From Medicago truncatula (lineage: Eukaryota; Streptophyta; Magnoliopsida; Fabales; Fabaceae), in contig NC_053048.1 of NCBI RefSeq assembly GCF_003473485.1, forward strand, positions 52,263,755 through 52,327,754: a stretch of DNA of 64,000 nt, in the 5' to 3' direction. The position numbers and the translations under genes were made by a program. The notes beneath the pieces were generated by a model that worked only from the letters and a program-made list of their open reading frames with translations, was not told the origin of the DNA and made no database searches. This document shows positions 7,159-62,397 of the stretch, piece after piece; within the stretch, counting starts at the first letter, position 1, and each line of letters begins with the position of its first letter.

Positions 7159-8096
7159 CAGGTTAACAATGTTTTTCACCCCTGTAATATAGTAATATAT
7201 GTCATTTCCGGTTTTCACCCTTATAAAATTTTTGATTTGGTTTCCGTCCTCATAATTTTTTTTTTAATTGGCCGCATTAGATTTTAATATTTTATTATTA
7301 AAATATCTTAAATTTAATTTTTAAAAATCCAAAATAATATAAATGAATTTATATTAATTTAAAATTAAAAAATTATAAAAACTAGAAAAAATATTTTATT
7401 AAATTTAAGGAATAAAATTTTCGAAAAAATAATTGAATATTTTCCTATATTTGTATCCAGATTTTTAAAAAAATTTTTTTTTTTGTAGAAAAAATTTTCG
7501 AAAAAAAATCCGATTATAATTTTAAATTTTGAAAAAAATCTGATTATATTTTCAGATTTTTTTCTAATTTTTTAAATTTGAAAAAAGTTATAGTTATTTT
7601 CTGATTTTTAAAATTTTAGAAAAAAAATCTAAATAAAAAAAAATTGGTTTTTCAGAAAAAAAAAAACCTATTACATTCCACAAATTTTAAAAATCGTCAT
7701 AATTTCGTAAAAAAACTAATTTTTTAAATTTTGAAGAAAAAAAATCTTAATGTTTTTTTCTAATTCTTTTTATTTTAGAAAAAAAATTCTTTTTTTTTGA
7801 AAAAAATCTGAATATTTTTATGATTTTTTTTATTATTTAAAATTAATTTTCAAATTTTTTTTAAAATAAAATCTGATGTGAAAATGTTTTTTTTTACATG
7901 TGGCTAATTAAAAAAAATAAAAAATGAAAAAAGAATGGCAACTCAGCGCCACATAAGAAAATCTGCTGAGTTAAATGGGGGAAGGGGGTTTTCAGAATTT
8001 TTTTTTTTTACGAGGATGAAAACCAAACCGAAAATTTTACAAGGGCGAAAATAAAAAATGACCTATATTACAGGAATGAAAAACACTATTAACCCC
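7159..8096. mobile_element. Non-autonomous TIR element with A/T-rich core
   Basis: The ends are inverted copies: GGTTAACAATGTTTTTCA on the left matches the reverse complement of the right end (GGTTAATAGTGTTTTTCA), followed by shared CCTGTAATATAG. ACTTATA flanks both ends (7152-7158 and 8097-8103), a likely TSD. The core is almost pure A/T homopolymer-like sequence and codes for nothing. The superfamily is uncertain; a MULE-type MITE is my best guess. Confidence 0.7.
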
Positions 8097-25154: not shown

Positions 25155-27110
25155 TCAAGCTTTGAAGCCAAGGTAGTGAGGAACATGAAGACCATTCAAC
25201 CATTCAGCTGCAGACTTGGGTCCAGCTTGGAGCCATATACCAGCTGTGAATTTGTTAGCCTCGGCCCTGCTAATGACACCGTGATAACCCTTCCACTTGA
25301 CCCTCCTCGCAACATTGGCACCAGGTCCGGTGTTTGCATACTCTGCATAGTAACATGTGTTGTGATTTTGTTCTCCTTGCCAAATGGTCCATCCATCTGG
25401 ATGAATGAAATCACCAATGGTGGATTCCATGACGACAGTCTTTGCTAAATACTTCCATGGTCTGCCCAAGTAAGACCGAATTGTGAATCTTTCTGGGAAC
25501 AATGCTGCTTCTGGGATGATATTGCAATCCTGGATCACAATACCAGTATTCAAATTCATCGTGTCTGATCCGTCTGCGGTAATTGTGTTGAATTGCCCTT
25601 TGCCAGGCTTTCTTACAATGATTGTAGAGTGTTGGATCAAGGTAGCAGATGATCCAAAGATGAAGTCAACGGTACCAGAGACAAGACAATTGCGGTAGTA
25701 CTGCCTGTTGCTTTGAACATACAAGCTGTCTTGGTAACCCACGATATGGCAACCCACCAAAGCAGACATATCTCCTACGTTTCTAAATGCCACAGCTTGG
25801 TGACCATCAGGACCGGCTGTGTTCTCAAATGTCATTGCCTTTCCAATGAACCCTATTGCGGTGTTGGCTGCACGCATGGATAATCAATTAATTAGTAATT
25901 TCGATCACACTGGCTATATATGTCAATGTTATATGTATATATTTCTCTTTTCAATGCGAGTTATGTTTTCTTCAAAAATAAATTTTGAGAGTGATGCTAC
26001 TTTTTCTTATATACTCTTTCTTCAATCATAAGGTATACAATTAATCAAATAAAATAAAAAAAGCTTTGATAGATAATAATTGAATTACGTACCGAAGGTG
26101 GCGGTTTGCATGGTCTTGGTACCGGCAGCAAAGTTCTTTCTACCGGTGACAATGGTCCTTGCAGGGCCATCACCATACATAAGAATGTTAACAGCATCCT
26201 TGGGTACAGTGATGTATTCGTCATAGACACCAGCCTTAACGTAGATAAAATACCTGCCTTTGTTTCCCTTAGGATAAGAGGCAAGAGCAGCCTGGATGGT
26301 TTTAAATTGGCCGCTACCATCATTGGCAACAACAGCATTAGGCCTAATATTTGCTCTCCAATTTTTTCGTTGCATTTTAGCCAAAAGCTTGCGATCAGAA
26401 GCAGAGATCCATGAAGGGTATCCTTGATCGTCAACAGTCACCTCAGAATTAAGAAGACGACGGGAAAGAGGTTTGATATCAAACTTCAAGTTGAATTGCT
26501 GGAGGATGTCGGACAAACCAGTCACAATGTCAAGGGCAACCGCGGTGATCTTTTGTACGCTGTCCAAACTCTGAACATGGAATTGCTCTTTGATTTTCTT
26601 CTCACCATCATTTGCATCGTCAAATCCTTCCATACAGGCTTGTCTGTAGGATATGACTGCACTCAACCAATTCCTCATATCAGCAGTTTGGTCATGAACA
26701 GCTTGAATGTTGTTGTCACTAAGACAATTGTTTGAGAGGTCAAGACTGTCCAAAGCGAATTGCATCAAGTCCTTGCAGTCATCAAGAGCCATCTTGGCAC
26801 CATTTTCCTTTCCATACTCAGTGGTGAGCCTTTCACTCATGTTAAAGGCGTTCATGACATTGTCAGTGGCTGCCTTCACGGCGGCTGCTATGTATGCCTT
26901 AGGGTCAGCGGCATCGGCGCCATGCACAGAGCTAAGAGTTTCATGGCAGAGTTTCTGGTCTTGTGCGTTTTGGCACATAATTCTAAGATTTCTTTGTTGA
27001 GTTTGAACCTCAGGGTCTTTACCATTTTTGTGAATGTCGACAACAACACCGATGATAACACCTACAACGAGAATAAGAGAAACGGCGGAGATAATTACCT
27101 TTCCCTTCAT
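25155..27110 (-). CDS. Pectin methylesterase B (PMEI-PME type)
   Basis: Exons 27110-26093 and 25867-25155 join in phase to 576 residues with the same architecture as gene A: signal anchor, inhibitor-like pro-region, RRLL and RKLL motifs, catalytic domain. Catalytic residues are Q363 (QAVAFR), Q385/D386 (QDSLYV), D407 (VDFIFG) and R474/W476 (LGRPW), all intact. Exon 1 is close to gene A, but exon 2 is nearly the same as that of gene C: 6 base differences in 713 by eye, and none from the stop codon to about 25577. By contrast 25 of 339 residues differ from C in exon 1, which points to gene conversion. The extra 5' UTR hairpin of C-E is absent. The donor is GTACGT, as in A. Confidence 0.95.
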
Positions 27111-33396: not shown

Positions 33397-35350
33397 TCAA
33401 GCTTTGAAGCCAAGGTAGTGAGGAACATGAAGACCATTCAACCATTCAGCTGCAGACTTGGGTCCAGCTTGGAGCCATATACCAGCTGTGAATTTGTTAG
33501 CCTCGGCCCTGCTAATGACACCGTGATAACCCTTCCACTTGACCCTCCTCGCAACATTGGCACCAGGTCCGGTGTTTGCATACTCTGCATAGTAACATGT
33601 GTTGTGATTTTGTTCTCCTTGCCAAATGGTCCATCCATCTGGATGAATGAAATCACCAATGGTGGATTCCATGACGACAGTCTTTGCTAAATACTTCCAT
33701 GGTCTGCCCAAGTAAGACCGAATTGTGAATCTTTCTGGGAACAATGCTGCTTCTGGGATGATATTGCAATCCTGGATCACAATACCAGTATTCAAATTCA
33801 TCGTGTCTGATCCGTCTGCAGTAATTGTGTTGAATTGCCCTTTGCCAGGCTTTCTTACAATGATTGTAGAGTGTTGGATCAAGGTAGCAGATGATCCAAA
33901 GATGAAGTCAACGGTACCCGAGACAAGACAATTGCGGTAGTACTGTCTGTTGCTTTGAACATACAAGCTGTCTTGGTAACCCACGATATGGCAACCCACC
34001 AAAGCAGACATATCTCCTTGGTTTCTAAATGCCACAGCTTGGTGACCATCAGGACCGGCTGTGTTCTCAAATGTCATTGCCTTTCCAATGAACCCCATTG
34101 CGGTGTTGGCTGCATTCATGGATAATCAATTAATTAGTAATTTCGATCACATTGGCTATATATGTCAATGTTATATGTGTATCTATATCTTTTCAATGTT
34201 AGTTATGTTTTCTTCAAAAATGAATTTTGAGAGTGATGCCACTTTTTCTCATATACTCTTTCTTCATTCATAAGTAAATAATTAATTAAATAAAATAAAA
34301 AAGTTTTGATCGATGATAATTGAATTAAGTACCGAAGGTGGCGGTTTGCATGGTCTTGACACCAGCAGCAAAGCTCTTTCTACCAGTGACAATGGTCCTT
34401 GCAGGGCCATCACCATACATAAGAATGTTAACAGCATCCTTGGGGACAGTGATGTATTCGTCATAGACACCGGCCTTAACGTAGATAACATATCTGCCTT
34501 TGTTTCCCTTAGGGTAAGAGGCAAGAGCAGCCTGGATGGTTTTAAATTGGCCGCTACCATCCTTGGCAACAACAGCATTAGGCATAATATTTGCTCTCCA
34601 ATTTTTTCGTTGCATTTTAGCCAAAAGCTTGCGATCAGAAGAAGAGATCCATGAAGGGTATCCTTGATCGTCAACAGTCACCTCAGAATTAAGAAGACGA
34701 CGGGAAGCAGGTTTGACATCAAACTTCAAGTTGAATTGCTGGAGGATGTCGGACAAACCAGTCACAATGTCAAGGGCAACAGCGGTAACCTTTTGTACGC
34801 TGTCCAAACTCTGAACATGGAATTGCTCCTTGATCTTCTTCTCACCATCATTTGCATCGTCAAATCCTTCCATACAAGCTTGTCTGTAAGAGATAACCGC
34901 ACTCAACCAATTCCTCATATCAGCGATTTGGTCATGAACAGCTTGAATGTTGTTGTCATGAACACACTTGGTGGAGAGGTCAAGACTGTCCAAAGCGAAT
35001 TGCATCAAGTCCTTGCAGTCATTAAGAGCCATCTTGGCACCATTTTCCTTTCCATACTCAGTGGTGAGCCTTTCACTCATGTTAAAGGCCTTAATGACAT
35101 TGTCGGTGGCTGCCTTCACGGAGGCTGCTATGTATGCCTTCGGGTCAGCGGCATCGGCGCCATGCACAGAGCTAAGAGTTTCATGACAGAGTTTTTGGTC
35201 TTGTGAGTTTTGGCACATAATTCTAAGATTTCTTTGTTGAGTTTGAACCTCGGGGTCTTCACCATTTTTGCGAACGGCGACAACAACACCGATGGCAACA
35301 CCTACAACGAGAATAAGAGAAACAGCGGAGATAATTACCTTTCCCGACAT
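33397..35350 (-). CDS. Pectin methylesterase C (PMEI-PME type)
   Basis: Exons 35350-34333 and 34109-33397 join in phase to 576 residues (start MSGKVIIS). The signal anchor, inhibitor-like region, RRLL/RKLL cleavage motifs and catalytic set (Q363, Q385/D386, D407, R474) are complete. Exon 1 and the 5' UTR group with D and E (for example VVGVAIGVV, STKCVH, and the UTR hairpin), whereas exon 2 is almost the same as that of B. The gene is therefore a mosaic. The donor is GTACTT, unlike GTACGT in A and B, but still GT. The TATA box at 35469-35476 lies about 120 bp upstream of the ATG because of the longer 5' UTR. Confidence 0.95.
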
Positions 35351-38452: not shown

Positions 38453-41400
38453 TGATAGATTTTTTTAGCAAGTGTACTAAATACTATCGAAGTAGTAAAA
38501 ATATCGTTCCAACGAGGACTATGTTAATCTCAATTTAACAATAAGGTTAATATTTAGGATGTGTAAATTTCTTTTAGTTGCCCGAGGCAGTAGTTTTGGT
38601 TTGCATAAAATTAAATAAACAGAAAATAAAGATAGAGTTGGAAAGAATAAGAGAGAGATGAGATTAGGTCTTTCGAATCATCTATGTTTCCCTAATTGGT
38701 ATACTGCACCTATTCTTATGAATGATTTTCTAGTTCCACGATAGTTAACAAAATAGTCCTAATCAATCCCTTGAGTTAGAACCCTCTTCTCAAACTACAG
38801 CCCCTAATTCCTTAGGTGGTCTAATAATCTTTGAAGGTTTAAGAACGTTAACCTAGTATCACTAATAAAGGATTATCCATTCCTAGACTAACCATGTTTA
38901 TTAGAACAATTCAATTAGGTATAAGTCGAAAGCTAGGGTCAGTAGTCATTCGTTCTCACTAAATCATGTTTATATTTGATCAGGATATAAAAAGCATTAA
39001 GAACAATTGAATTGAATAAAAACTAAATTGTCATTCACAATAAATAAAGTTTCACAGCAACATGAATCAATTAGGGTTACACAGATTCATCTCAGACCTA
39101 ATCAAAGGAATTTAGTTAGACATGATAAAAAGAATTAAGCATATAAATAAAAGAAATTACAATGTTTTGATATTGAGAATTTCTTGAACTGATATGCCTT
39201 TTTTTCTTTGTGCATGTGTTGAAGCCTTGCTCCTTCTCTGCTCTCGGGAACCGTGCCTCCAAAACCTTCCAAAACGTGAAATATGTATCAGCAGCCGTCC
39301 CGTTGTTACCTAATGCCTCTTGCTTTTATAACCTTCTTGTAACCTAGTTTTTCAATTCCAATCAGCATGTTACGTTTCTTTATGCTCAAGAAACATGATA
39401 AATAAAGCCCAATTGTATCTTCTTTTCACACCTTCCATATTATGATATTCTTTTGTTTCCTTTCATTCAATTCTCACTTTGTTTTACGTGGCTCTTTTGT
39501 ATTAATCATATTTTCTCTTGCCACATGTTCCTAAAATCGTGTCACGAAATAGCCATCGTGACACGTTTTAACCAATGTCGAATGAACCTCATCTTATGTT
39601 CCAAATCGTGACACGTTTTTCAGTAATTGTGACACGATGCCTTCTTTTCAGTTTCTTCAGCTTTTTCTTGTTTTTCTTGCTGCTTAAGCTTGCTTGTGAA
39701 CTCAAAAATATCATAAAAAGACTCTAAAAATAGTGAATGACTGACTGTCATCACAACTCCAAACTTGAACCATTCCTTGTCCTCAAGGAATTTACTTGCA
39801 ATATTGACAATCGACAGTAAAATAACAATTACCTGATCAAGCGATAGTACCCAAAAGTTCAACACCTTACTAGCTAAAGATGAGCTAGTTTGACTTGTTA
39901 GCAATCACCAATTCACAACTCCACGCAACAATATGAAAGGGTTCACACACAATCGACATGCAATCTACATATTACCATACGCTTGAAAAGTTTCTAAACG
40001 TCAATCAAAATCAATGTCAATGCACACTTTGAGGTCTTAAAGGGTTATAACGGAGCTTAGGTGAAGGTGGGATAATATTTGGATAAGTAGGCTACACAAA
40101 ATTTGAGTTAGGCATTCCTACGGAAGTTAAGCACAAAATTCAATTCATCATTCATTCACCTTTTGGAACAACAATTCTTGCAAGAGTACTAGAGATTATT
40201 TATAACAATTGGGACAATCGAATTTAAAGTTACTCGGTTTTTCAATGTCTTGTCCCTTTTTCATTCTATTCTTTTTTTTTTTTTTAATACACCATTTTGG
40301 CATATTGTTTTAATGAGAATGTTCTTTTTTTTTTTTTTTCTTTTCTTTCTTTGTTCTCTAGTACCCCCACCCCAAACTTAATTGGTTGCAAATTCCAATA
40401 GCAACCCCAAACTTAATATTTAGCAACATTCTACAATGCCTAACTCGGAAAAACAATAAGGGGTAAATCCTAAAAGTCTCTAAGCTTGTAATGTAGTTTG
40501 TCACCGAACAAAAAGATCTAAACCTACCAACTCAATTTGGCTGAAGAAAGGATAAAATTTCAAAACAATCAGGGTAGGCTTTAAAAGGCTCACAGGACCA
40601 AGCACTTTTGCCTCAGTGTGTATATGACAAAGATCAATCGACAGCAGAGAAAAATTGCAAGTTCTAGAAATGTAAATGCATGGAACACTCTTTAGAAGTA
40701 AATTGGAAAAATAAAATTTGGCCATGAACCTTACATTTTAGATTTCTGGGAGTTGTGACTACCTATCTTTCACTGCCGTACACTTCGCCTTTGAATCACA
40801 AGTCACTCCTCCTTTTGAACTTTTGGAATACCACTTGAACACGTATTTGTTACTAAATTGGAAAAAATCAACAAACAAGCAAATTCATCAATAATAAACA
40901 AGTTCAGATTCAATCACATAACAGGGGGATACAACCAAAATAAAAATTAAAGACAAATTGTTTGACTCAACAATAGAAATAAATTACTGAAAATAAAGAC
41001 ATAATAAAAAGGATGGGTTGCCTCCCACCAAGCGCTTTCTTTTACGTCATTGAGCTTGACGCTTCAACCACTGTTAGGGTGGCAAAAATGATAAAAGGAA
41101 TATATCACCCTTCTTCTTCCTCCTGTTTGGTAGGAATTCCATGAATTTGGCGTAAAGAATCAGATACTCCCATGCACTCACTGTTGATCTTTTGGAATTT
41201 AAGCTCTCCCACCTTAGAGAAGGACGTGCATCCATTTGCACACGAGTTATTTCCTTAACCTCCGTTGATCCAGACTTCGGAAAAATATCCACACTCCTCA
41301 CTTTGGGATTTTCTTCCACAACAACCTCGTGACACTCAGTCTCCATCTGAACCAGCTTCTTCTGAGACTCATGTGCTTTCTCAACAAGATCACCACACTG

Positions 41401-43089
41401 AACATCAAACTTCTCAAATGAAACTTGATTTGACACCAAGAAATCATCTAAAATATTTTGAAGTTGAGTATTGTAATCGATGTTGATCACCTCTTTCTTC
41501 TCTTCACAATTACTACATGGTTGATTCGCCTCATAACGACCACATCTCTCATTTAATCTCGAGATTTTTCTGTCCAAATATCATATCTTCAAAGATAGCA
41601 TATATTTTTCATACTTCAACATACCAATCTCTTCTGTGTCATGGAGGTATAACCTGTCTATCATAACTGCAAAATTTGGATAAACTTTTTAGTAGCACAG
41701 TGCAATGAGAAGAAAAATAAGAGCATAAATCATATATTTTTTTTTATTAATTTTTATTTTATTTTTATATATAAACAAAAATATAAATGACAGAAATCCT
41801 AAATAAAAACAAAATTACCAAATTGAAATGACTCAACAGTCCCCGGCAGCGGCGCCAAAAACTTGATAGATTTTTTTAGCAAGTGTACTAAATACTATCG
41901 TAGTAGTAAAAATATCGTTCCAACGAGGACTATGTTAATCTCAATTTAACAATAAGGTTAATATTTAGGATGTGTAAATTTCTTTTAGTTGCCCGAGGCA
42001 GTAGTTTTGGTTTGCATAAAATTAAATAAACAGAAAATAAAGATAGAGTTGGAAAGAATAAGAGAGAGATGAGATTAGGTCTTTCGAATCATCTATGTTC
42101 CCCTAATTGGTATACTGCACCTATTCTTATGAATGATTTTCTAGTTCCACGATAGTTAACAAAATAGTCCTAATCAATCCCTTGAGTTAGAACCCTCTTC
42201 TCAAACTACAGCCCCTAATTCCTTAGGTGGTCTAATAATCTTTGAAGGTTTAAGAACGTTAACCTAGTATCACTAATAAAGGGTCAGTAGTCATTCGTTC
42301 TCACTAAATCATGTTTATATTTGATCAGGATATAAAAAGCATTAAGAACAATTGAATTGAATAAAAACTAAATTGTCATTCACAATAAAGAGAGTTTTAC
42401 AATCAATTAGGGTTACACACATTCATCTCAGACCTAATCAAAGGAATTTAGTTAGACATGATAAAAAGAATTAAGCATATAAATAAAAGAAATTACAATG
42501 TTTTGATATTGAGAATTTCTTGAACTGATATGCCTTTTTTTCTTTGTGCATGTGTTGAAGCCTTGCTCCTTCTCTGCTCTCGGGAACCGTGCCTCCAAAA
42601 CCTTCCAAAACGTGAAATATGTATCAGCAGCCATCCCGTTGTTACCTAATGCCTCTTGCTTTTATAACCTTCTTGTAACCTAGTTTTTCAATTCCAATCA
42701 GCATGTTACGTTTCTTTATGCTCAAGAAACATGATAAATAAAGCCCAGTTGTTTCTTCTTTTCACACCTTCCATATTATGATATTCTTTTGTTTCCTTTC
42801 ATTCAATTCTCACTTTGTTTTATGTGGCTCTTTTGTATTAATCATATTTTCTCTTGCCACATGTTCCTAAAATCGTGTCACGAAATAGCCATCGTGACAC
42901 GTTTTAACCAATGTCGAATGAACCTCATTCTATGTTCCAAATCGTGACACGTTTTTCAGTAATTATGACACGATGCCTTCTTTTCAATTTCTTCAGCTTT
43001 TTCTTGTTTTTCTTGCTGCTTAAGCTTGCTTGTGAACTCAAAAATATCATAAAAAGACTCTAAAAATAGTGAATGACTGACTGTCATCA
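38453..43089 (-). mobile_element. Non-autonomous LTR retrotransposon, Ty3/gypsy-like (fossil)
   Basis: LTRs 38453-39753 and 41864-43089 begin TGATAGATTTTTTTAGC and end GACTGTCATCA. The 5-bp TSD TTATC is perfect (38448-38452 and 43090-43094). A primer-binding site (TGGCGCCGCTGCCGGGGACT, minus strand) adjoins the right LTR, so that one is the 5' LTR. The inner 2.1 kb has no recognisable gag, protease, RT or integrase; it must have moved with helper proteins. It looks structurally whole for a non-autonomous element. The LTRs differ by roughly a dozen substitutions plus two gaps by eye, suggesting an age of well under 1-2 million years at usual plant rates. Confidence 0.9.
41074..41577 (-). other. 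Open frame inside the LTR element
   Basis: A 167-codon minus-strand frame with acidic, coiled-coil-like sequence (DDFLVSNQVSFEKFDVQCGD) and a Cys pair (CSNCEEKK). I do not recognise it as gag or pol. It may be a leftover of the parent element's non-canonical region or chance. Confidence 0.35.
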
Positions 43090-44169
43090 TTATCCCCATA
43101 GTTCTGAACACCATAAGCCATGGATGCCAGGAAAAAAAACAGAGGTTTGCGCATGAACAATCATGGAGTTTTGAGGAAATTTAGAATTTTTTATGTTCAT
43201 CATGGTTTTGAGTTGTGGATTATGAATTTTGAATTGATGATGAAAATAAAGATAAAGAGGGTAAATCAATTTTGAATTTTGATTTTGAATATGAATATGA
43301 TAATTTCTAGTCAGATGTGTTGGTGAACATGAGTTTATGTGCACTGTTGGAGAAGATGAGGAATTGGAGGTGCTGGAGAAGATGAAGGAAGAAATTATTT
43401 TGGTCCCTCACCTACCAGCAACCTAGTCCCTTGCCAGCGTGGTACGCGAATACAACAGCTGAAGTGGCAAGTATAACAGACATGTCAGCACCGTTAACAC
43501 TCTGTTAGCGTTTTGGATGTGAATGACTAACGGAAGAGACTTTGAGGGAGTTTTTGGTTCGATTCCTTGATTCAGGGATGTGCCTGATAGCGAGGTACAC
43601 TTTCAGGGACCCAAATGAGGGTTTACTCCTAATTCTTTAAAATACTCTTGCCCTAATTCCTTAGTTAACGGGTCATTAATTCTAAAATAACCTCTAAATT
43701 CTTAGTGAATTTAAGATTAAAATTAAAGTTTTTACTGAAAACAATTGTTATAATATGTATGCACTAAGTAAAATAATTAAGGAAAATATAGTTAAGGGTA
43801 AAAAAAAAATCTTCCCTATAGAACTATCAAGTTTCATTTTTCGATATTTTTCGTATAATAAAAACTTAATTTTTAATTAAAAAATGTTATTGTGTTATGT
43901 AGTACATAAGCATAATAAACAAAAACGCAAAATTAAATAAATTTCTGAAAAAATAATGAACAATAAATTTATTGAGTCAAATAATGTTATAATTAAATAG
44001 CGATGAATAATTCTTATAAACATGCATTCCAATTTAATTTCAAAAAAATAAACAATATATGGCGTAAATATCTCTTCTTCATTGCTATAACCTCACACTC
44101 TCGGGCTAGAAAGAGTAGAAAACAATCATCCTCAAATACTAAGTGAGAAACAGTTGGGGCGCTAGTACA

Positions 44170-44440
44170 AATAATAGCCTCAGATATCTAGGTAGGGAGA
44201 AAAAGGGTCGCCTTTTCGGAGACCTCGACCTGGAATAATAGGGCCACCATTCACCAACACGGAGTAATATACCGTTTTCAACACAAAGCATGATCCAATA
44301 AACCCATTGTAATGTAAAACCCATCTTAATCATAATTTGTCTAAGATAATCTCAATCCATTCGTTCATACTTACTTATATCAAGTTTAAGAGAAACATTA
44401 CCTTGCTTACCTTTTGCTCATCTTTTTTCTTATACGATCA
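44170..44440 (-). mobile_element. LINE RT fragment 3' of PME D
   Basis: Minus-strand [16 protein letters not shown] and KLDISK words, the same remnant as at 31995. The identical copy next to E is at 53128-53398. Confidence 0.65.
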
Positions 44441-44734
44441 GTCATTCATTTGATTTAACTGCTTTTATAACTAATATGGATTAAGCAAAAAAAGGAAACA
44501 TTTTTGTGTATGAAGTTTGAAATAACGCTTGTACTCTTACCAAAATGGAATGGTTATATTTGAATGATCAAAAGAAAAATGAAAATTGAAGCTTAAACTA
44601 TAATTCGAGCAAATTTTCATTTGTATTTCTGGTGGATCTCCTGGAAAAATATAGGAAGGTAATTACAAAGAATAATAATTTGTTTATGTGCCATGCATCA
44701 CATTCACACTCTCTCAGAGTTACATGTTTAATTT

Positions 44735-46736
44735 TCAAGCTTTGAAGCCAAGGTAATTAGGAACATTAAGACCAGTCAACCATTCGGCTGCGGACTTGGG
44801 TCCAGCTTGGAGCCATAAACCAGCAGTGAATTTGGTAGCCTCGGCCCTGCTAATGGCACCGTGATAACCCTTCCACTTGATCCTCCTGGCAATATTGGCA
44901 CCAGGTCCAGTGTTGGCGTACTCTGCATAGTAACATGTGTTTTCAAAATGTTCTCCTTGCCAAGGGGTCCATCCATCTGGATGAATAAAATCACCAATGG
45001 TGGATTCCATGACGACCGTCTTTGCTAAAACCTTCCATGGTCTGCCCAAGTAAGATTTAATTGTGAATCTTTGAGGGAACAATGCTGCTTCTGGGACAAT
45101 ATTGCAGCCTTGGATCACAATACCAGTATTCAATTTATTCACGTATGACCCGTCTGCGGTAATTGTGTTGAATTGATTTGGGGAAGGCATTCTTACGATG
45201 ATCGTAGAGTCTTGGATCAAGGTGGCAGATGTTCCAAAGATGAAATCAACGGTACCAGAGATAACACAATTGCGGTAGAATTGCCTGTTGGTTTGAACGT
45301 ACAAAGTGTCTTGGTAACCCAGGATATGGCAACCCACCAAAGCAGACATATCTCCTTGGTTTCTAAATGCCACAGCTTGGTGACCAGCAGGACCGGCTGT
45401 GTTCTCAAATGTCATTGCCTTTCCAATGAACCCCAATGCGGTGTTGGCTGCATGCATGGATGATCAATTAATTAGTAACTTCGATCACACCGGCTATTAT
45501 ATGTGTCAATGTTATATTTATGTATGTATGTATGTATGTATGTATGTATGTGTGTGTGTGTATATATAAATCTTTTCAATGTGAGTTATGTTTTCTTCAA
45601 AAATGAATTTTGAGAGTGATGTTACTATTTCTCATCATTACCCTTTCTTCATTCATAAGGTACACAATTTATTAAATAAAATAAAAAAGTTGTGATCGAT
45701 GATAATTGAATTACTTACCGAAGGTGGCGGTTTGCATGGTCTTGACACCAGCAGCACCGTTCTTTCTTCCGGTAACAATGGTCTTTCCGGGGCCATCACC
45801 ATACATAAGAATGTTAACAGCGTCTTTGGGAATAGTGATGTATTCATCATAGACGCCAGCCTTAACGTAGATAGTATATCTGCCTTTGTTCCCCTTAGGG
45901 TAAGCGGCAATAGCAGCCTGGATGGTTTTAAATTGACCGCTACCATCCTTGGCAACAACAGCATTAGCCCCAACATTTGCTCTCCATCCGTTTCCTTTCA
46001 TTTTAGCCAAAAGCTTGCGATCAGAAGCAGAGATCCATGAAGGGTATCCTTGATCATCAACAGTCACCTCAGAATTAAGAAGACGACGGGAAGCAGGTTT
46101 GATATCAAACTTCAAGTTGAATTGCTGGAGGATGTCGGACAAACCAGTCACAATGTCAAGGGCAACAGCGGTAACCTTTTGTACGCTGTCCAAACTCTGA
46201 ACGTCTAATTGCTCCTTGATCTTCTTCTCACCGTCATTTTCATCGTCAAATCCTTCCATACAAGCTTGTCTGTAAGAGATAACTGCACTCAACCAATTCC
46301 TCATATCAGCGGTTTGGTCATGAACAGCTTGAATGTTGCTGTCATGAACACACTTGGTGGAGAGGTCAAGACTGTCCAAAGCGAATTGCATCAAGTCCTT
46401 GCAGTCATTAAGAGCCATCTTGGTACCATCTTCCTTTCCATACTCAGTGGTGAGCCTGTCACTCATGTTAAAGGCCTTAATGACATTGTCAGTGGCTGCC
46501 TTTACAGCGGCTGCTATGTATGCCTTAGGGTCAGCGGCGTCGGCGCCACGCACAGAGCTAAGTGTTTCATGGCAGAGTTTTTGGTCATCTGCATTTTGGC
46601 ACATAACTTGAAGAGATCTTTGTTGAGTTTTAACCTCAGGGTCTTCACCATTTTTGTGAACAGCGCAAACCACGCCGATGGCAACACCTACAACGAGGAT
46701 AAGAGAAACAGCGGAGATAATTACCTTTCCATTCAT
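44735..46736 (-). CDS. Pectin methylesterase D (PMEI-PME type)
   Basis: Exons 46736-45719 and 45447-44735 join in phase (donor GTAAGT, a better consensus than in A-C) to 576 residues. It has the signal anchor, inhibitor-like pro-region with its Cys set, RRLL and RKLL processing motifs, and the full catalytic set (QAVAFR, QDTLYV, VDFIFG, LGRPW). The catalytic domain differs from B and C in many places (RMPSPNQFNT, PWQGEHFENT, NVPNYLGFKA). The encoded protein is the same as that of gene E. The intron holds an (ATGT)n repeat at about 45521-45560. TATA box 46846-46853 and the 5' UTR hairpin 46776-46804 precede it. Confidence 0.95.
45521..45567. repeat. (ATGT)n/(GT)n microsatellite in PME D intron
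   Basis: About eight TATG units followed by GT and TA repeats. The same run, of equal length as far as I can see, stands in the intron of gene E at 54479-54525, which supports a very recent duplication because such runs change quickly. Confidence 0.9.
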
Positions 46737-46775
46737 TTTTTTTATTTTTTGCTCGAATTATTAGAAGACTAGTTT

Positions 46776-46804
46776 CCTCCCCTTGGGTGTTTTAGTAGGG
46801 GAGG
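46776..46804 (-). promoter_or_regulatory. 5' UTR hairpin, PME D
   Basis: CCTCCCC and GGGGAGG pair across about 15 nt in the leader, as in C and E. Confidence 0.5.
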
Positions 46805-49345
46805 CTTATTGGAGATCCCTGAAGAGTTATGGGATGATGTTATGGTTTTTATAGGTGATAAAAAAAAGTTTCTACCAACCAAAGTAAATTCTATATTTGG
46901 CAATTTGTTAAATGATAGGCACATAATTGTCGAAAACTTATCGGTTAATTTTAGGAATGGGTTGAAACACTGTCTACCACTATTTTTCTTTTCTAAAACT
47001 GGCAGTTTGTTGTGATGTTTTGCAAGAAAACAGCATTTCTATAATAATGTTAATTGGTATTTTAAGGTAAATTGAACGAGGTTGATATACACTGTGGTGT
47101 CTAAAATTAGGTGAAGGAGACCATTTCTAAGATCTTGAGTTGCTTGGTTTTTGGGAAATAAACGGTGAGTTTTTTTTTTTTTTTTGTTTGGTTAAGCAAT
47201 TATAATATCAGTCCAATTAACTAACCGTTCAAAATCAAAATAGTGAATGACTGACTGTCATCATTATCCCCATAGTTCTGAACACCATAAGCCATGGATG
47301 CCAGGAAAAAAAACAGAGGTTTGCGCATGAACAATCATGGAGTTTTGAGGAAATTTAGAATTTTTTATGTTCATCATGGTTTTGAGTTGTGGATTATGAA
47401 TTTTGATTTTGAATATGAATATGATAATTTCTAGTCAGATGTGTTGGTGAACATGAGTTTATGAGCACTGTTGGAGAAGATGAGGAATTGGAGGTGCTGG
47501 AGAAGATGAAGGAAGAAATTATTTTGGTCCCTCACCTACCAGCAACCTAGTCCCTTGCCAGCGTGGTACGCGAATACAACAGCTGAAGTGGCAAGTATAA
47601 CAGACATGTCAGCACCGTTAACACTCTGTTAGCGTTTTGGATGTGAATGACTAACGGAAGAGACTTTGAGGGAGTTTTTGGTTCGATTCCTTGATCCATG
47701 GATGTGCCTGATAGCGAGGTACACTTTTAGGGACCCAAATGAGGGTTTACTCCTAATTCTTTAAAATACTCTTGCCCTAATTCCTTAGGGTCCGTTTGGT
47801 TCGAGCGTTTTGGAGGGGAGAGGAGGGAAGGGGAGGGGAGATTTTTAATTTGAAGTGTTTGGTTCTATTTTTAGAAGGGAAGGGAAGGGGAGGGGAGGGG
47901 AGCAAATCTCTTTAAAATTTTATTGCATTGCCATAATTATCCTTAAATTAATTTCAAATCTCAATATTAACCTTGTAACAACTTTTATTATTATTAGATT
48001 ATATTATTTTTGTAACAATCTTATTATTATTATTAGGTTATCTTATTCTTGTAACAATTATTATTATTATTTTGTTATATTTTCCTTGTAACAATTTTTA
48101 TTATTATATAATCTACCACTCTTATTTGTTAGATGTACAAACCGCTCTTACTACTACTTTGTTGTTGTCAACGACTGCTTGAGGCTTCCTCCAAAGTGAA
48201 TTGTGAGTAATTTCATCATCTCATTGTCTATATCGTAGTATTATTAATTACATCGTTATTGATTCGCTACTTTATTATCCTTGTTTAATCGTTATCGTTG
48301 TTGGAACTTTATTGTTTAAATTGTTGCTTTATCCTTACGGTGGCTTGTTTGTTTCATAGTGTGTTTTTTCTTATGGTATTGATCCATTCATTTGAGAGTA
48401 TTGTTTTTTTTTCACTTTTAAAATCGTTGAAGTCTTTTTTTTTTTTTTTATGAAATCGTTGAAGTTTTATTATTATTATTATTATTTTATTTTAATTCAG
48501 CTTATTATACTTGTTGTTGCTTGTTTTTTTTTCACAGTTAATTCACCTATCCATGTCTTGTTGTGTAAAATCTTGACCAAATTTTTTTTTCACTACACAA
48601 CCTTACTATTATCGGATTAGCTGAATATAACTCGTAATCATTGAATCAAATTGAAAATGAAATTCACTAAAAACGCACATAGTTTTAAAAAAAAAAAAAA
48701 AAAAATTTACCATGAGAACAGAAATATACAAATAAAATTTTGCATAAAATAGCTACAGCCTACAGGCAAACGAACAGTAAAAACTCAGGACATGTTTACA
48801 TTTCACATGTTCCCACTTAAAACCTCTCTCAAGCATGCAGGCCATTTATTTTATTTTTTTAAAGGCTGATGCTGCCTATTGAACTTGTTCCTGTTGGCAC
48901 ACTACATTATCCATCCTCAAAGCTGTGCATTATTTTTATTGATACTTATTGTTGTTGGAGTATCAGATACAGCTTATATAAAATGCAAATCTTCACTTCT
49001 AGCTAAAATAGGATAATCACAACCTAGTAGTGTTTTTTTTCACTGTTAATTCACCGATCCTACATGTCTTGTTGTGTAAAATCTTGGCTTTATTTTTCTG
49101 TACATTAATCTATATGCTTTGTTTCATTTTTTTTATCTTCCATATATCTATACATTAATCATGATTTTTTTTTTCTTTTTTACGTTCTGCTTTTCTTTCT
49201 ATATGCTTTGTTTCATTTTTTTTTCTTCCATATATTGATCATGACCTCGTTTATATATAAATATGTTTGTTGTAGTTTATTACATGTCTATATGTAATTG
49301 TAGTATAAGAGTTATATAATCTAGAAATTAATTTTATGCGATTAG

Positions 49346-49896
49346 ATGGATCATCAAGATCAGAAAATTGCTATCAATAGATGGTTTGATTTGCGCCGAA
49401 GAGCTATAGCTCAGCTTATGTGTGCTGTTGTCTTTTGTTATATTCGAATCTCTCGTAAAAAAAAAAATAAGTTATAGTATGAGCTCTCAGAGAGAAAGGG
49501 TGCGTGAAGAAGTAATGTATCGACTTAAAAATAGTGAAACTAGTAGAAATATAATAAGAATGGGTCCTCAAACTTTTTTAAAGTTATGCGATATGTTAGA
49601 AAGAGAAGGGGGCTTACGACCTACAAGATGGTCAAGTGTGGAAGAACAAGTTGCAAAATCACTTTACATACTAACCCATAATGCTAAAAATCGTGAAGTC
49701 AACTTTTGGTTTCGTCGTTCGGGTGAGACAATTAGCCGTCATCTCCATCAAGTTTTGAAAGCTATTCTTGAATTGGAAGAAAAGTTTATTGTACAACCTG
49801 ATGGATCAACGATCCCCTTGGAAATTTCTAGTAGCACTAGATTCTACCCATATTTTAAGGTACATTTTTATATTAATAAAATATTAGCAAGACTTG

Positions 49897-49958
<62 letters not shown>

Positions 49959-50762
49959 ATAGAAAAATACTATATTGTGTCAGGATTGTGTTGGTGCTAT
50001 AGATGGAACACATATACGAGTCAAGGTATCTGCAAAAGACGCCCCTCGTTATCGTGGTAGGAAAGAGTATCCAACACAAAATGTTTTAGCAGCGTGCACT
50101 TTTGATTTAAAGTTCACGTATGTGCTTGCGGGATGGGAAGGCTCCGCCTCTGACTCAAGAATAATAAAGAATGCATTAACACGAGAAGATAAACTTAAAA
50201 TTCCTCAAGGTAATATAAGAATCAACATAAAGTTATAACTACTTATATTATATACTTCAAACTATCACATTTATTATTTACCTTTACTATAGGAAAATAT
50301 TATCTAGTTGATGCTGGTTTCATGTTGACAAGTGGACTTATTACGCCTTATAGAGGAGTTCGGTATCACTTGAAAGAATTTTCGGCAAGAAATCCACCCC
50401 TAAATTATAAAGAATTGTTTAATCTTTGGCATGCGTCTTTACGAAATGCAATTGAAAGAGCCTTTGGTGTATTAAAAAAAAGATTTGAGATTTTATCAAA
50501 TTCAACAGAACCCGCTTATGGAGTCAAAGCTCAGAAATTAATCATTTTTGCATGTTGCATTCTTCACAATTATCTAATGAGCGCAGAACCAAATGAAGAC
50601 CTTATAGCTGAAGTAGATGCCGAACTTGCAAATCAAAATGTATCCCATGACAATCATGAGGCATCAAGAAGTGATATGGATGAATTTGCTCAAGGTGGAA
50701 TTATAAAAAATGGTGCAGCGCATCAAATGTGGTCAAATTATGAAAATAATGGTCAAACCTAA
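49346..50762 (+). CDS. Harbinger DDE transposase (HARBI1-like), with one frameshift
   Basis: Exons 49346-49859, 49984-50209 and 50293-50762 have GT-AG borders. The start MDHQDQKIAINRW leads into RMGPQTFLKLCDMLE and SVEEQVAKSLYIL. The catalytic DDE set is DCVGAIDGTH (D), GWEGSASDSR (D) and NAIERAFGVLKKRF (E), all present. In exon 1 the run of 11 A's at 49457-49467 shifts the frame between ISRKKK and ISYSMSSQ; with ten A's the frame would be open, so the copy is disabled by one base or this is a sequencing error. Intron 1 carries a long (AT)n run (about 49907-49956). The enzyme would cut and join DNA with a TTA target preference. Confidence 0.9.
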
Positions 50763-50973
50763 ATGGATTACATTGCAATTTATATTATTATTTTGATTTT
50801 GGTTTTTCTTTGATGAAGTAGTACTGAATTTATTAAATTATGGTGTTTTTTATATATGTGTGTGTTTGGACTAAATGTATATTTGAAATTGATGTCAAGT
50901 GAATGATATTGGAACTTCATGTTAATTATATTTATTAATGTAGTTATGTTATAATTGACCATTTTTATAGATT

Positions 50974-52032
50974 ATGACATCGAAAAAGCAATTGTCAACC
51001 AACAATGGTAATTCTGGGTCTTTGACCTGGAATAAAGCCATGGATGATGCTCTTGTTGATGCTCTCATGCAAGAATTTGAAAACGGTAACAAAGTTAACG
51101 GTACCTTTACGTCAATAGCATATAAAAATGTTACAGATGAACTCGTGAGATTGTTTGGTGACCAAATTGATAAGGTGAAGATACAAAATCGTTGGAAAAC
51201 TTTGAAAAGAAACTACAGTGAGTATCACGAAAATTTTAAAGGTGGTATGAGTGGGTTTTCTTGGAATTCAACTACACAGTTATGGGATGCGGAAGAACCA
51301 GTTTGGGCTGCTCTAATTGAGGTAAATTTTGTAAATCTTGTATTTTGAAATATTTTTTGATTGATCAAAAATTTTACAACTTGTGTCAAACTTACTTTTC
51401 AGTCGAAACCAAAAGCAGCACATTGGAGAGTTGATTCATTTCCAAACTATAAAAAGATATCAATACTTCATGGGCCTAACCGAGCTGATGGAGATGAATC
51501 TGGAACTTTTAAAGAGACCGGAAAACGAGGGGCATCGATCACTGAGGAAGATTTTGTTGAAACTATTCAAGATATTGATGACCGTGTTGCTCGGAATGAG
51601 GTAACTTTGGAGAGCTTTGATGCTCCTGATTATGACTTTACTTTACCTGAAACACAATCATATGATCCTTCAACCATGGCAAGTGGTGGAAAAAGGAAGA
51701 GATTGAAAGTGGCTAAGAATAAAGAGACATATAATGATATTATTGAACTTAAAGAGTCAATGAAAGTGGTTGCAGAGGCACTCAGAGAAGGAAATGTTGC
51801 AATACGGGAAGGAAATGAAATAACGAGAGAACGTCATAAACACGAGTTGCCTCCAATTTCAGGAGAAGAGACTTGGAATTTATTAGAGGAGTGTGAATGT
51901 GACCCAAATTCATTGCCTAAGATATATCGTGTTGTCATGAAAGATGTAGACATACTTAGAATGATTCTTCAGTGTCCACCCAAAGCACGCAAAGCAGTCA
52001 TAATGGAAACTGTCTTTGGTTCTTCTGATTAA
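50974..52032 (+). CDS. Harbinger Myb/SANT-like DNA-binding protein
   Basis: Exons 50974-51321 and 51403-52032 join in phase to 325 residues. The N-terminal 110 residues form a Myb/SANT-like trihelix (LTWNKAMDDALVDALMQE, KVKIQNRWKTLKRNYSEY, FSWNSTTQLWDA). A basic stretch (GGKRKRLKVAKNK) may be a nuclear signal, and the C-terminal part has charged helices (ELKESMKVVAEALREGNVAI). In this superfamily the second protein binds the ends and brings the transposase to the nucleus. It lies 211 bp after the transposase in the same direction. The frame is intact. Confidence 0.9.
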
Positions 52033-53127
52033 TCATACTATGATGGTGTTATGATGTTTATGTGTTTTTTTAGGGAGACTGTTTTGTTATGATGTTTATC
52101 ATTATTTTTTTTAAGGAGAAATAGTTAACAATAGTCATAGTCACTTTCATGTGTCTTATTTGTTCATATGCAACAAATTTCATTTATCTTACAATTGTTA
52201 ATTAATAAGCACTATCCATGATTTTGAAAATTCTTATGTCATATATTTAAGAGCTATGCTATTTTTTACAAAAGTAATTGGAAAAAAATGCAAGGATTAC
52301 AAAGAATTGCTCTTATAAAAAAAATATTACAAAGAATTGCTCCGATAAAAAAAGCCAAAAAAAAAAAACAATATGATGCTTGGAGCAAAATACATGAGCC
52401 AGTTTAAGATAAAATAGCGGCTTAGATGTGTGCTTGTCTTTGTCAGTTTCTGAAATCGTAAAAACAAACAGTTTCTTTTATTTAATTAAGTTTAAGGGTA
52501 AAACGGTAAAATACAGTTAAAATCCCTCCCCTTGTGAACCAAACACACTTTTAATTAAAAATATCTCCCCTCCACTCCCCTCCGTAAAAATCCCTCCCCT
52601 CCCCTCCTAATTCTCGAACCAAACGGACCCTTAGTTAACGGGTCATTAATTCTAAAATTTAGAGAATTTAAGATTAAAATTAAAGTTTTTACTGAAAACA
52701 ATTGTTATAATATGTATGTACTAAGTAAAATAATTAAGGAAAATATAGTTAAGGGTAAAAAAAAAAATCTTCCCTATAGAACTATCAAGTTTCATTTTTC
52801 GATATTTTTCGTATAATAAAAACTTAATTTTTAATTAAAAAATGTTATTGTGTTATGTAGTACATAAGCATAATAAACAAAAACGCAAAATTAAATAAAT
52901 TTCTGAAAAAATAATGAACAATAAATTTATTGAGTCAAATAATGTTATAATTAAATAGCGATGAATAATTCTTATAAACATGCATTCCAATTTAATTTCA
53001 AAAAAATAAACAATATATGGCGTAAATATCTCTTCTTCATTGCTATAACCTCACACTCTCGGGCTAGAAAGAGTAGAAAACAATCATCCTCAAATACTAA
53101 GTGAGAAACAGTTGGGGCGCTAGTACA

Positions 53128-53398
53128 AATAATAGCCTCAGATATCTAGGTAGGGAGAAAAAGGGTCGCCTTTTCGGAGACCTCGACCTGGAATAATAGG
53201 GCCACCATTCACCAACACGGAGTAATATACCGTTTTCAACACAAAGCATGATCCAATAAACCCATTGTAATGTAAAACCCATCTTAATCATAATTTGTCT
53301 AAGATAATCTCAATCCATTCGTTCATACTTACTTATATCAAGTTTAAGAGAAACATTACCTTGCTTACCTTTTGCTCATCTTTTTTCTTATACGATCA
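53128..53398 (-). mobile_element. LINE RT fragment 3' of PME E
   Basis: Same remnant as beside C and D, copied with the unit. Confidence 0.65.
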
Positions 53399-53692
53399 GT
53401 CATTCATTTGATTTAACTGCTTTTATAACTAATATGGATTAAGCAAAAAAAGGAAACATTTTTGTGTATGAAGTTTGAAATAACGCTTGTACTCTTACCA
53501 AAATGGAATGGTTATATTTGAATGATCAAAAGAAAAATGAAAATTGAAGCTTAAACTATAATTCGAGCAAATTTTCATTTGTATTTCTGGTGGATCTCCT
53601 GGAAAAATATAGGAAGGTAATTACAAAGAATAATAATTTGTTTATGTGCCATGCATCACATTCACACTCTCTCAGAGTTACATGTTTAATTT

Positions 53693-55694
53693 TCAAGCTT
53701 TGAAGCCAAGGTAATTAGGAACATTAAGACCAGTCAACCATTCGGCTGCGGACTTGGGTCCAGCTTGGAGCCATAAACCAGCAGTGAATTTGGTAGCCTC
53801 GGCCCTGCTAATGGCACCGTGATAACCCTTCCACTTGATCCTCCTGGCAATATTGGCACCAGGTCCAGTGTTGGCGTACTCTGCATAGTAACATGTGTTT
53901 TCAAAATGTTCTCCTTGCCAAGGGGTCCATCCATCTGGATGAATAAAATCACCAATGGTGGATTCCATGACGACCGTCTTTGCTAAAACCTTCCATGGTC
54001 TGCCCAAGTAAGATTTAATTGTGAATCTTTGAGGGAACAATGCTGCTTCTGGGACAATATTGCAGCCTTGGATCACAATACCAGTATTCAATTTATTCAC
54101 GTATGACCCGTCTGCGGTAATTGTGTTGAATTGATTTGGGGAAGGCATTCTTACGATGATCGTAGAGTCTTGGATCAAGGTGGCAGATGTTCCAAAGATG
54201 AAATCAACGGTACCAGAGATAACACAATTGCGGTAGAATTGCCTGTTGGTTTGAACGTACAAAGTGTCTTGGTAACCCAGGATATGGCAACCCACCAAAG
54301 CAGACATATCTCCTTGGTTTCTAAATGCCACAGCTTGGTGACCAGCAGGACCGGCTGTGTTCTCAAATGTCATTGCCTTTCCAATGAACCCCAATGCGGT
54401 GTTGGCTGCATGCATGGATGATCAATTAATTAGTAACTTCGATCACACCGGCTATTATATGTGTCAATGTTATATTTATGTATGTATGTATGTATGTATG
54501 TATGTATGTGTGTGTGTGTATATATAAATCTTTTCAATGTGAGTTATGTTTTCTTCAAAAATGAATTTTGAGAGTGATGTTACTATTTCTCATCATTACC
54601 CTTTCTTCATTCATAAGGTACACAATTTATTAAATAAAATAAAAAAGTTGTGATCGATGATAATTGAATTACTTACCGAAGGTGGCGGTTTGCATGGTCT
54701 TGACACCAGCAGCACCGTTCTTTCTTCCGGTAACAATGGTCTTTCCGGGGCCATCACCATACATAAGAATGTTAACAGCGTCTTTGGGAATAGTGATGTA
54801 TTCATCATAGACGCCAGCCTTAACGTAGATAGTATATCTGCCTTTGTTCCCCTTAGGGTAAGCGGCAATAGCAGCCTGGATGGTTTTAAATTGACCGCTA
54901 CCATCCTTGGCAACAACAGCATTAGCCCCAACATTTGCTCTCCATCCGTTTCCTTTCATTTTAGCCAAAAGCTTGCGATCAGAAGCAGAGATCCATGAAG
55001 GGTATCCTTGATCATCAACAGTCACCTCAGAATTAAGAAGACGACGGGAAGCAGGTTTGATATCAAACTTCAAGTTGAATTGCTGGAGGATGTCGGACAA
55101 ACCAGTCACAATGTCAAGGGCAACAGCGGTAACCTTTTGTACGCTGTCCAAACTCTGAACGTCTAATTGCTCCTTGATCTTCTTCTCACCGTCATTTTCA
55201 TCGTCAAATCCTTCCATACAAGCTTGTCTGTAAGAGATAACTGCACTCAACCAATTCCTCATATCAGCGGTTTGGTCATGAACAGCTTGAATGTTGCTGT
55301 CATGAACACACTTGGTGGAGAGGTCAAGACTGTCCAAAGCGAATTGCATCAAGTCCTTGCAGTCATTAAGAGCCATCTTGGTACCATCTTCCTTTCCATA
55401 CTCAGTGGTGAGCCTGTCACTCATGTTAAAGGCCTTAATGACATTGTCAGTGGCTGCCTTTACAGCGGCTGCTATGTATGCCTTAGGGTCAGCGGCGTCG
55501 GCGCCACGCACAGAGCTAAGTGTTTCATGGCAGAGTTTTTGGTCATCTGCATTTTGGCACATAACTTGAAGAGATCTTTGTTGAGTTTTAACCTCAGGGT
55601 CTTCACCATTTTTGTGAACAGCGCAAACCACGCCGATGGCAACACCTACAACGAGGATAAGAGAAACAGCGGAGATAATTACCTTTCCATTCAT
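53693..55694 (-). CDS. Pectin methylesterase E (PMEI-PME type), twin of D
   Basis: Exons 55694-54677 and 54405-53693 join in phase to 576 residues, encoding a protein identical to gene D, exactly 8,958 bp away. All catalytic residues and processing motifs are kept. The intron, its microsatellite and the promoter are also alike, except for one A fewer in a run near 55818. The identity fits a recent duplication, not selection alone. TATA box 55804-55811, UTR hairpin 55734-55762. Confidence 0.95.
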
Positions 55695-55733
55695 TTTTTT
55701 TATTTTTTGCTCGAATTATTAGAAGACTAGTTT

Positions 55734-55762
55734 CCTCCCCTTGGGTGTTTTAGTAGGGGAGG
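55734..55762 (-). promoter_or_regulatory. 5' UTR hairpin, PME E
   Basis: Same CCTCCCC/GGGGAGG stem as in D. Confidence 0.5.
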
Positions 55763-56193
55763 CTTATTGGAGATCCCTGAAGAGTTATGGGATGATGTTA
55801 TGGTTTTTATAGGTGATAAAAAAAGTTTCTACCAACCAAAGTAAATTCTATATTTGGCAATTTGTTAAATGATAGGCACATAATTGTCGAAAACTTATCG
55901 GTTAATTTTAGGAATGGGTTGAAACACTGTCTACCACTATTTTTCTTTTCTAAAACTGGCAGTTTGTTGTGATGTTTTGCAAGAAAACAGCATTTCTATA
56001 ATAATGTTAATTGGTATTTTAAGGTAAATTGAACGAGGTTGATATACACTGTGGTGTCTAAAATTAGGTGAAGGAGACCATTTCTAAGATCTTGAGTTGC
56101 TTGGTTTTTGGGAAATAAACGGTGAGTTTTTTTTTTTTTTTTGTTTGGTTAAGCAATTATAATATCAGTCCAATTAACTAACCGTTCAAAATC

Positions 56194-60431: not shown

Positions 60432-62397
60432 ATGAAAACTAAAACATTGCTAGTCTCGTCCTTTTTCCTCATCTTGATTATTAATATTACTTTTGGTATT
60501 GTCCACAGTGATAATTTCAATGAGTTTAGAATCCCTAATAAGGTTGTCAAGTCCTTATGCAAAGACACTGATGACCATAAACTTTGCCATGATGTCCTCT
60601 ACCCCGTGAAAACCTCAAACCCAATAGATTATATTGATGTTGTGGTGAAGAACTTGATGGAAAGCGTAGAAAACGCATTTAATGACATGAGTAATAAACT
60701 TAGTTCTATGGAGAATAATGAAAGCAACAATTTAGGTATCAAGATGGCCCTTGAGGACTGCAAGGACATGTTACAGTTCGCTATCAATGAACTTAAGGCA
60801 TCTAAAGTTATCATCACTGAAAGTAGTAGCATTCGCAGTATACACAATCGTTCGGTAGAACTCAAGAATTTATTTGGGGCTGTCATTGCCTACCAACAAT
60901 CTTGCCTTGATGGCTTTTCTGATACAAAAAGTGATAATAATAAGGCCATGTTACATTTGCAAACAGATAACTACTTGGACAATGTTGGAAAGCTCACTGG
61001 TTTGGCACTTGATGTTGTATCCGAGATCTCTCATTCAACGAATGTTAAATCATTAGTGGATAATGAAGGGTATCCAACTTGGTTTTCCGTTGATGATCGT
61101 AAGCTGATGGCTATGGGTCCGATTGGAGCCACTGACAACGACGTTTTAGTAACGGTTGCCAAGGATGGCAGTGGTCAATATAAGACTATTGTTGATGCTA
61201 TTAATGCATACCCAAATAACCATCAAGGAAGGTACATTATCTACACTAAGAGTGGTGTATATGATGAGTACATTTTTGTTGACAAGGATAAACCAAATGT
61301 TTTCATGTTTGGTGATGGCCCTACAAAAACCATTATCACCGGCAGCAAAAGCTTTCTCCAGGGTATCAAGACAATGAGAACCGCCACTTTTTGTAAGTTC
61401 AATTAATTACTTTCATTCATTATACGTTTAATTGATTATTTCATTAGTTTTATTCACTTGCTTTAAATTTTGATTTTTGTATTACTCTTATAACCGAATG
61501 CGCATTAAGTAAACTGGTTTTGATAATAAAATCAAAAGTTGTTACTATTATAAAAAGGCATATGTTCTTTTTTCAATCCGTTGATCAGTTCCCTTCAAAA
61601 CACTTGTTGGTTTTATTGCGCATTAAGCAAACTAATAACTTTAAAAAAAAAATAAAAAAAAAAATCTTCATTTCGTTGATGATAATGTTGCAGCAACCGT
61701 TGCAGAAGGCTTCGTTGCAAGGGGAATTGCTTTTGAGAACACCGCTGGTCCTCGAGGTCACCAGGCAGTGGCAGTTCGCGTGCAAGGTGATCGTTCAGCT
61801 TTCTACGACTGTATATTTCGTGGTTACCAAGACACATTGTATGTGCATGCACATCGTCAATATTATCGTAACTGTGAAATCTCTGGCACAGTAGACTTCA
61901 TATTTGGTTACTCGTCAACTCTAATACAAGATTCGAAGATAATTTTAAGAATGCCTTATCCACATCAAAATAACACGATAGTAGCTGATGGAACAGAACA
62001 AAAGAACATGCCAACAGGAATTGTTGTTCAAAACTGTGTCATTTTGGCAGAGGCTGAATTGTTACGAAACAAGTTGAAAGTAAAGTCTTACTTGGCAAGA
62101 CCATGGAAGGAATATTCAAGAGCTGTGTTTATTGAGAATGTGATAGGTGATGTTATTCAGCCAGAAGGGTATATTCCATGGACAGGAGAATATCCAAATA
62201 TTGAGAACTCTTACATGGCTGAGTTTGGGAACAGTGGAGAAGGTGCTGGTGTTGAAAGAAGAGTGGATTGGGCTAAGGGACTCATTAGCAAGGAAGAAGC
62301 TTTTCAATTTACTGCTGCTCAATTTATTCAGGCTAACACATGGTTGCCTATAACTGGCATTCCTTTTTATAATGGCTTCATAAGAGAGATTAATTAA
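60432..62397 (+). CDS. Pectin methylesterase F, divergent (PMEI-PME type)
   Basis: Exons 60432-61392 and 61694-62397 join in phase (donor GTAAGT) to 554 residues. It shares the intron position with A-E but is on the other strand and far more diverged. A cleavable-looking signal peptide (LLVSSFFLILIINITFGIV) is followed by the inhibitor-like region (CKDTDDHKLCHDVL, LEDCKDMLQFA). The RRLL motif of A-E is absent; only DRKLM (about residue 218) could serve as processing site. The catalytic set is Q344 (QAVAVR), Q366/D367 (QDTLYV), D388 (VDFIFG) and R456/W458. The usual LGRPW reads LARPW, a change next to the catalytic Arg. Probably active, but less certain than A-E. It ends 225 bp before the next gene. 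Confidence 0.93.

Follow-up and report, generated by a model that had tools for sequence, protein, structure and literature searches.

The whole stretch of 64,000 nucleotides of Medicago truncatula DNA analysed here (the window) contains a tandem pair of units, only one of which holds a PIF/Harbinger transposon of the MtPH-A6-3 subfamily, and comparison of the two copies at the sequence level shows that the insertion is real and that its paralogous empty site is clean (Table 1). Judged by the distribution of substitutions, the gene halves of the two units look younger than both the insertion and the sequence flanking it, and homogenisation after the insertion is the simplest cause of the observed pattern. 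We thus favour, with a probability of about 0.47, a succession of events in which a retrotransposon insertion was followed by the tandem duplication, the insertion of the MtPH-A6-3 element and, finally, the homogenisation of the genes. The filled and the empty site within one tandem pair provide an internal control, and the adjacency of the two sites allows the relative ages of the flanks, the element and the gene half to be compared.

Table 1. Coordinates of the features of the tandem pair and its surroundings in the window.
Feature	Position	Strand	Remarks
LTR retrotransposon	38453..43089	.	LTRs 38453-39753 and 41864-43089; TTATC on both sides
Tandem unit copy 1	43063..47236	.	holds empty site and pectinesterase gene D
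Divergent pocket of copy 1	43063..43762	.	holds every substitution (6) and both larger indels (50 and 13 bp) vs. copy 2
Part of repeat with inverted ends	43090..43628	.	second copy (98%) on contig C6
Empty site AATTCCTTA/GTTAACGGG, single TTA	43655..43672	+	words AATTCCTTAGTTAACGGG
Gene half of copy 1	43763..47236	.	vs. copy 2 52720-56193: 0 substitutions/3,474 bp; two 1-bp A-run differences
Pectinesterase gene D	44735..46736	-	PMEI and pectinesterase domains, one inferred intron
Tandem unit copy 2	47237..56193	.	holds insertion and pectinesterase gene E
Left TTA target-site duplication	47785..47787	.	
PIF/Harbinger element, MtPH-A6-3 subfamily, 4,843 bp	47788..52630	+	
Left terminal inverted repeat GGGTCCGTTTGGTTCGAG	47788..47805	+	
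Open stretch with inferred transposase exon 1	49410..49898	+	
(TA)26 run, inferred transposase intron 1	49904..49955	+	
Open stretch with transposase exon 2	49963..50235	+	DDE_Tnp_4 profile positions 1-62 (GAIDGTH)
Open stretch with transposase exon 3	50214..50762	+	DDE_Tnp_4 profile positions 72-158
ORF1	50974..52032	+	Myb/SANT-like domain (PF12776) in first part
Right terminal inverted repeat	52613..52630	-	
Right TTA target-site duplication	52631..52633	.	
Pectinesterase gene E	53693..55694	-	reading frames same as D

The insertion point corresponds to the TTA at positions 43661-43663 of copy 1. The empty-site words that an earlier note on this DNA had reported are indeed present in this copy, but their coordinates had slipped by nine bases (43655-43672, not 43646-43663). 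In copy 2, AATTCCTTA ends at position 47787 and TTAGTTAACGGG resumes at position 52631. The insert between them has the 4,843 bp claimed in that note, splits the copy at TTA and is bordered by TTA on both sides, compared with the single TTA of copy 1, so that the filled copy indeed lies beside a paralogous empty one. The element is located 1,052 bp upstream of the start codon of gene D and 1,063 bp downstream of the stop of gene E.

The ends of the element are inverted repeats, and the 22-nt pair that includes flanking bases is 95% complementary. With up to two mismatches allowed, GGGTCCGTTTGGTT matched the window only at both ends of the element, on opposite strands (n = 2), while shuffled sequences yielded 0.19 matches on average and two or more matches in 2 of 100 shuffles. 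Terminal inverted repeats combined with a 3-bp TTA/TAA target duplication are those of a PIF/Harbinger element. Two successive open stretches match DDE_Tnp_4 (PF13359), both above the curated cut-off, and the predicted product of ORF1 matches PF12776 (Myb_DNA-bind_3; E = 1.3e-17), as is proper to the second open reading frame of PIF/Harbinger elements. The assignment to this superfamily and the TTA target duplication, both proposed previously, are thus borne out by the inverted ends, the DDE_Tnp_4 matches and the Myb/SANT-like ORF1. No Pfam match was found in the inferred exon 1 of the transposase gene. The frames of the element are open; two introns are predicted in the transposase gene and one short intron in ORF1, near positions 51320-51400, with intron borders deduced from the reading frames and GT/AG. 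A nested MITE in the transposase gene at positions 49897-49976 was considered and rejected, as this region is the (TA)n run. The best explanation of these features is an ordinary two-gene PIF/Harbinger transposon.

Grzebelus et al. 2007 (PMC2213677) list, in Table 3, GGGTCCGTTTGGTTCGAGARTT as the terminal inverted repeat (TIR) of the MtPH-A6-3 subfamily of M. truncatula. According to the same paper, members of this subfamily carry two transposase introns, the first with a TA microsatellite, and have orf1 after the transposase gene; their core element, MtPH-A6-3-Ia, occupies positions 2339-7183 of AC144563 (4,845 bp, 27 TA). The right end of the window element is identical to the listed TIR at 22 of 22 positions and the left end at 21 of 22; unlike the subfamily consensus, which has A, the left TIR has C at position 19. 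The order of the transposase gene and orf1, the two inferred transposase introns and the (TA)n run in the first of them also agree with the published architecture. In its TIR, gene order and the microsatellite in the first intron (26 TA here, 27 there), the window element resembles MtPH-A6-3-Ia in particular, as it does in its two transposase introns (stated in the paper and inferred here), and their lengths of 4,843 and 4,845 bp are one TA unit apart. Not only is the family of the element known, but very probably the element too: judging by length, TA count and gene order, it is very probably MtPH-A6-3-Ia itself. Two further copies that we retrieved fit other published members, namely IIa (L020, with 8 TA in both cases) and IIIa (L032, which starts at position 9 and has 20 TA, compared with the first 8 bp missing and 21 TA in the published element). 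The 2007 paper presents 11 paralogous empty sites (RESites) of MtPH elements as evidence of mobility, and the breakdown of these 11 in its text includes none for a coding A6-3 element. The site described here is, like those, an empty paralogue of a filled site, but, unlike them, it is adjacent to the filled site in a tandem duplication. Our literature search, mostly at the level of titles, found AC144563 only in the 2007 paper and no title on this tandem pair.

With the first 713 bp of the element as a query, at least 53 matches were found in the genome (best 40 of 286 candidates scored). Twenty-three element copies were examined. Alignments longer than 1,000 bases were obtained for 22, which were used (L037, with no more than 1,000 aligned bases, was dropped, and L022, which had no flank, was replaced by L038); some of the retrieved stretches end inside the element, so that coverage varies. 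The 22 copies differ from the window element by 0.65-1.29% substitutions. Both ends could be placed in 18 other copies; inspection of these by eye showed the same trinucleotide, TTA or TAA, immediately beside both ends in 11, and a length of only 1.0-2.7 kb in 14.

Once the element is omitted, the two unit copies align end to end (43063-47236 vs. 47237-56193), in the comparison that the earlier note had suggested as a check. The assembly contains exactly two matches of about 100% identity to a 1,443-bp piece of gene D, with 10 of 10 candidates scored. The two sides of the duplication junction share about 1 bp, and long repeats at the unit borders were therefore rejected as the cause of the duplication. 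The LTR retrotransposon at the left border, whose LTRs differ by 14 substitutions in 1,226 positions (1.1%), ends 27 bp inside copy 1. It is older than the tandem duplication, because both unit copies start with its final 27 bp. It is flanked by a 5-bp target duplication, TTATC, and has no long coding frame; only two ORFs of at least 80 aa overlap positions 39000-42500. The retrotransposon appears to have inserted into the repeat represented by positions 43090-43628, which we take to be MULE-like and the inverted ends of which are about 164 bp long (L011, L013).

The two unit copies differ by 6 substitutions in 4,108 aligned positions (548 to the left and 3,560 to the right of the site), located at 43340, 43572, 43575, 43604, 43706 and 43762, and by four indels, at 43223 (50 bp), 43689 (13 bp), 43799 and 46860 (1 bp each), of which the last two, in A-runs, could be assembly errors. 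All six substitutions fall within about 320 bp of the insertion point (P ~1.5e-5 under uniform placement), and none in the gene region 44200-47199. If the local rate was raised 10-fold or 20-fold, the probability of such clustering increases to 0.07 or 0.24, respectively, and simply dividing the alignment at the insertion site yields 4/548 vs. 2/3,560 (P = 0.004). Polarity was assigned with the use of the 98% copy of the 43090-43628 repeat on contig C6 (L011) as an outgroup. The changes at 43340 and 43572 occurred in copy 1, and those at 43575 and 43604, as well as the 50-bp deletion, in copy 2; this 2:2 distribution of polarised substitutions is uninformative as to the order of events. For 43706, 43762 and the 13-bp indel no outgroup was found, as the flank matched only both window copies (at least 53 matches, best 40 of 143 candidates).

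Relative to the 22 other copies, the window element carries 17 private substitutions in 4,743 positions (0.36%), which is an upper bound for its time at the site, as some of them may derive from a vanished donor copy. Private sites were scored where at least four copies cover them (5-22 copies at the 17 sites), with the TA run masked (element positions 2100-2199 for the private count and 2090-2210 for family controls). In 12 of the 22 other copies, used as controls, the private rates are 0.15-0.55%, and the age of the window element appears ordinary within its family. The pocket around the insertion, the right limit of which was chosen after the data were seen, diverged by 0.47% per lineage (0.9% between the copies), similarly to the private rate of the element (P = 0.61). 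In contrast, the gene half has 0 substitutions in 6,948 lineage positions (2 x 3,474; 95% limit 0.043%), which differs from the element at P = 2e-7; even without the 8 of 17 private changes that are C>T or G>A, the comparison is 9 vs. 0 (P = 3e-4). A search with 554 bp that include 6 of the 17 private sites revealed no near sister (38 matches, 37 of 37 candidates scored), the next best match having 973 vs. 1,000 bits; for the remaining sites, private status is based on the 22 retrieved copies. The proposal that the insertion must be young, as genes D and E are nearly identical, fails because the DNA around the insertion site changed more than the genes: the differences cluster at that site, and 17/4,743 private changes in the element stand against 0/6,948 in the gene half. 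Probably, either the gene half was homogenised after the insertion or the two copies come from different haplotypes.

In the favoured succession of events, the MtPH-A6-3 element would have entered the TTA of copy 2 by cut-and-paste after the duplication, with copy 1 left as the empty site. The 3.4-kb gene half would later have been homogenised between the copies, by gene conversion or by a second exchange, so that an older pocket persisted around the 4.8-kb insert; the identity of the genes would then date the homogenisation and not the insertion. A likely conversion tract between genes B and C, elsewhere in the cluster, also speaks for this explanation. Arguments against it are that there are only six substitutions, that the limit of the pocket is post hoc, that the private changes are an upper bound, and that haplotype mosaicism yields an identical pattern. 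Transposon sequence can also mutate faster, yet the ratio of the rates would have to exceed about 10 for the clustering to reach P = 0.07. A recent duplication followed by a very recent insertion into copy 2, with no homogenisation, agrees with the clean empty site, intact ends and open frames, but the pocket would then have to be a mutation hotspot and most private changes would have to be inherited from a vanished donor. At 0.043% per lineage the element should have about 2 changes rather than 17, the 554-bp segment has no near sister (its next best match scores 27 bits lower), the clustering has P ~1e-5 under uniform rates, and of the four pocket changes with assigned polarity, two belong to the empty copy. 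In rice, a mutation excess is described by Wicker et al. 2016 (PMC5023962) as strong at excisions and slight at insertion sites, the latter being in line with this reading, which we nevertheless regard as rather unlikely. As in the grasses of that report, substitutions and indels cluster here at the site of a DNA transposon; unlike there, changes are seen in both copies, and the remainder of the unit is free of substitutions, a combination that homogenisation fits at least as well as transposon-linked mutation does. Mutation caused by insertion on the filled copy alone was rejected as the full cause, with two of the four polarised changes in the empty copy, and the presence of changes on both copies argues against insertion- or excision-induced mutation as the whole cause.

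The main alternative to homogenisation is that the insertion was older than the duplication and polymorphic, and that the duplication joined units of an empty and a filled chromosome, the copies being former alleles. Sites of MtPH elements were polymorphic in 20 of 37 successful amplifications (56 tried) in eight M. truncatula populations (PMC2213677). A recombinant haplotype mosaic is expected to show this pattern, with an identical gene half next to a pocket diverged by 0.9%, and the junction homology of only about 1 bp is as in end joining. M. truncatula is a mostly selfing plant, and the need for a heterozygous ancestor in such a plant makes this origin unlikely in our assessment. The earlier view that the duplication came first unless the element left copy 1 by exact excision is right as to the likely order, but this order is not forced, since a duplication formed from one filled and one empty chromosome gives an identical picture. 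Exact excision itself, with the element present in the unit before the duplication, is conceivable, as PIF/Harbinger elements can leave without a footprint, which is exemplified by mPing. The clustering of mutations at the site would recall that after rice excisions (PMC5023962), but copy 1 shows no concentration of the changes (it has two of the four with assigned polarity), the 50-bp deletion is in copy 2, and an extra event is required; we consider this course very improbable. Two haplotypes of one unit placed in tandem by the assembly would look alike in their high identity, single insertion difference and blunt junction, and the finding of two near-identical copies of gene D in the assembly does not separate such an artefact from a true duplication. 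However, the window contains no N and, if the assembled plant is the inbred line A17, as we suppose, there would be no second haplotype to misplace, so that an artefact is hardly credible.

Possibly, though this is doubtful, the insert acts as a barrier, with gene conversion keeping the gene halves identical but stopping at most about 100 bp short of the insertion site. Should this be the case, the transposon would freeze an older, divergent pocket in a pair of duplicates that are identical elsewhere, and start the escape of the duplicates from concerted evolution. The dating of a transposon by the identity of surrounding genes can mislead where duplicates may exchange sequence, and this locus lends itself to the question of whether gene conversion between young duplicates is limited by insertions.

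The conversion tract referred to above concerns positions 25150-25899 of gene B (the corresponding part of gene C is at about 33400-34125), where the two genes differ at 8 of 750 positions, compared with 88 of 1,348 (6.5%) in the adjoining sequence (P = 3e-10, with tract limits picked by eye after the data were seen); the comparison makes gene conversion between B and C likely in this region. Six pectinesterase-like genes are present at positions 20900-62400 of the window, namely A-E on the minus strand and a more distant one on the plus strand (about 60501-62394), as identified by Pfam in the case of D and the plus-strand gene and by similarity in the case of A, B, C and E. Genes D and E have about 500 bp of upstream sequence in common and then differ, and their regulation may differ as well. 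Beyond the shared part, D faces the retrotransposon tail, the repeat and the Harbinger element, and E keeps other sequence.
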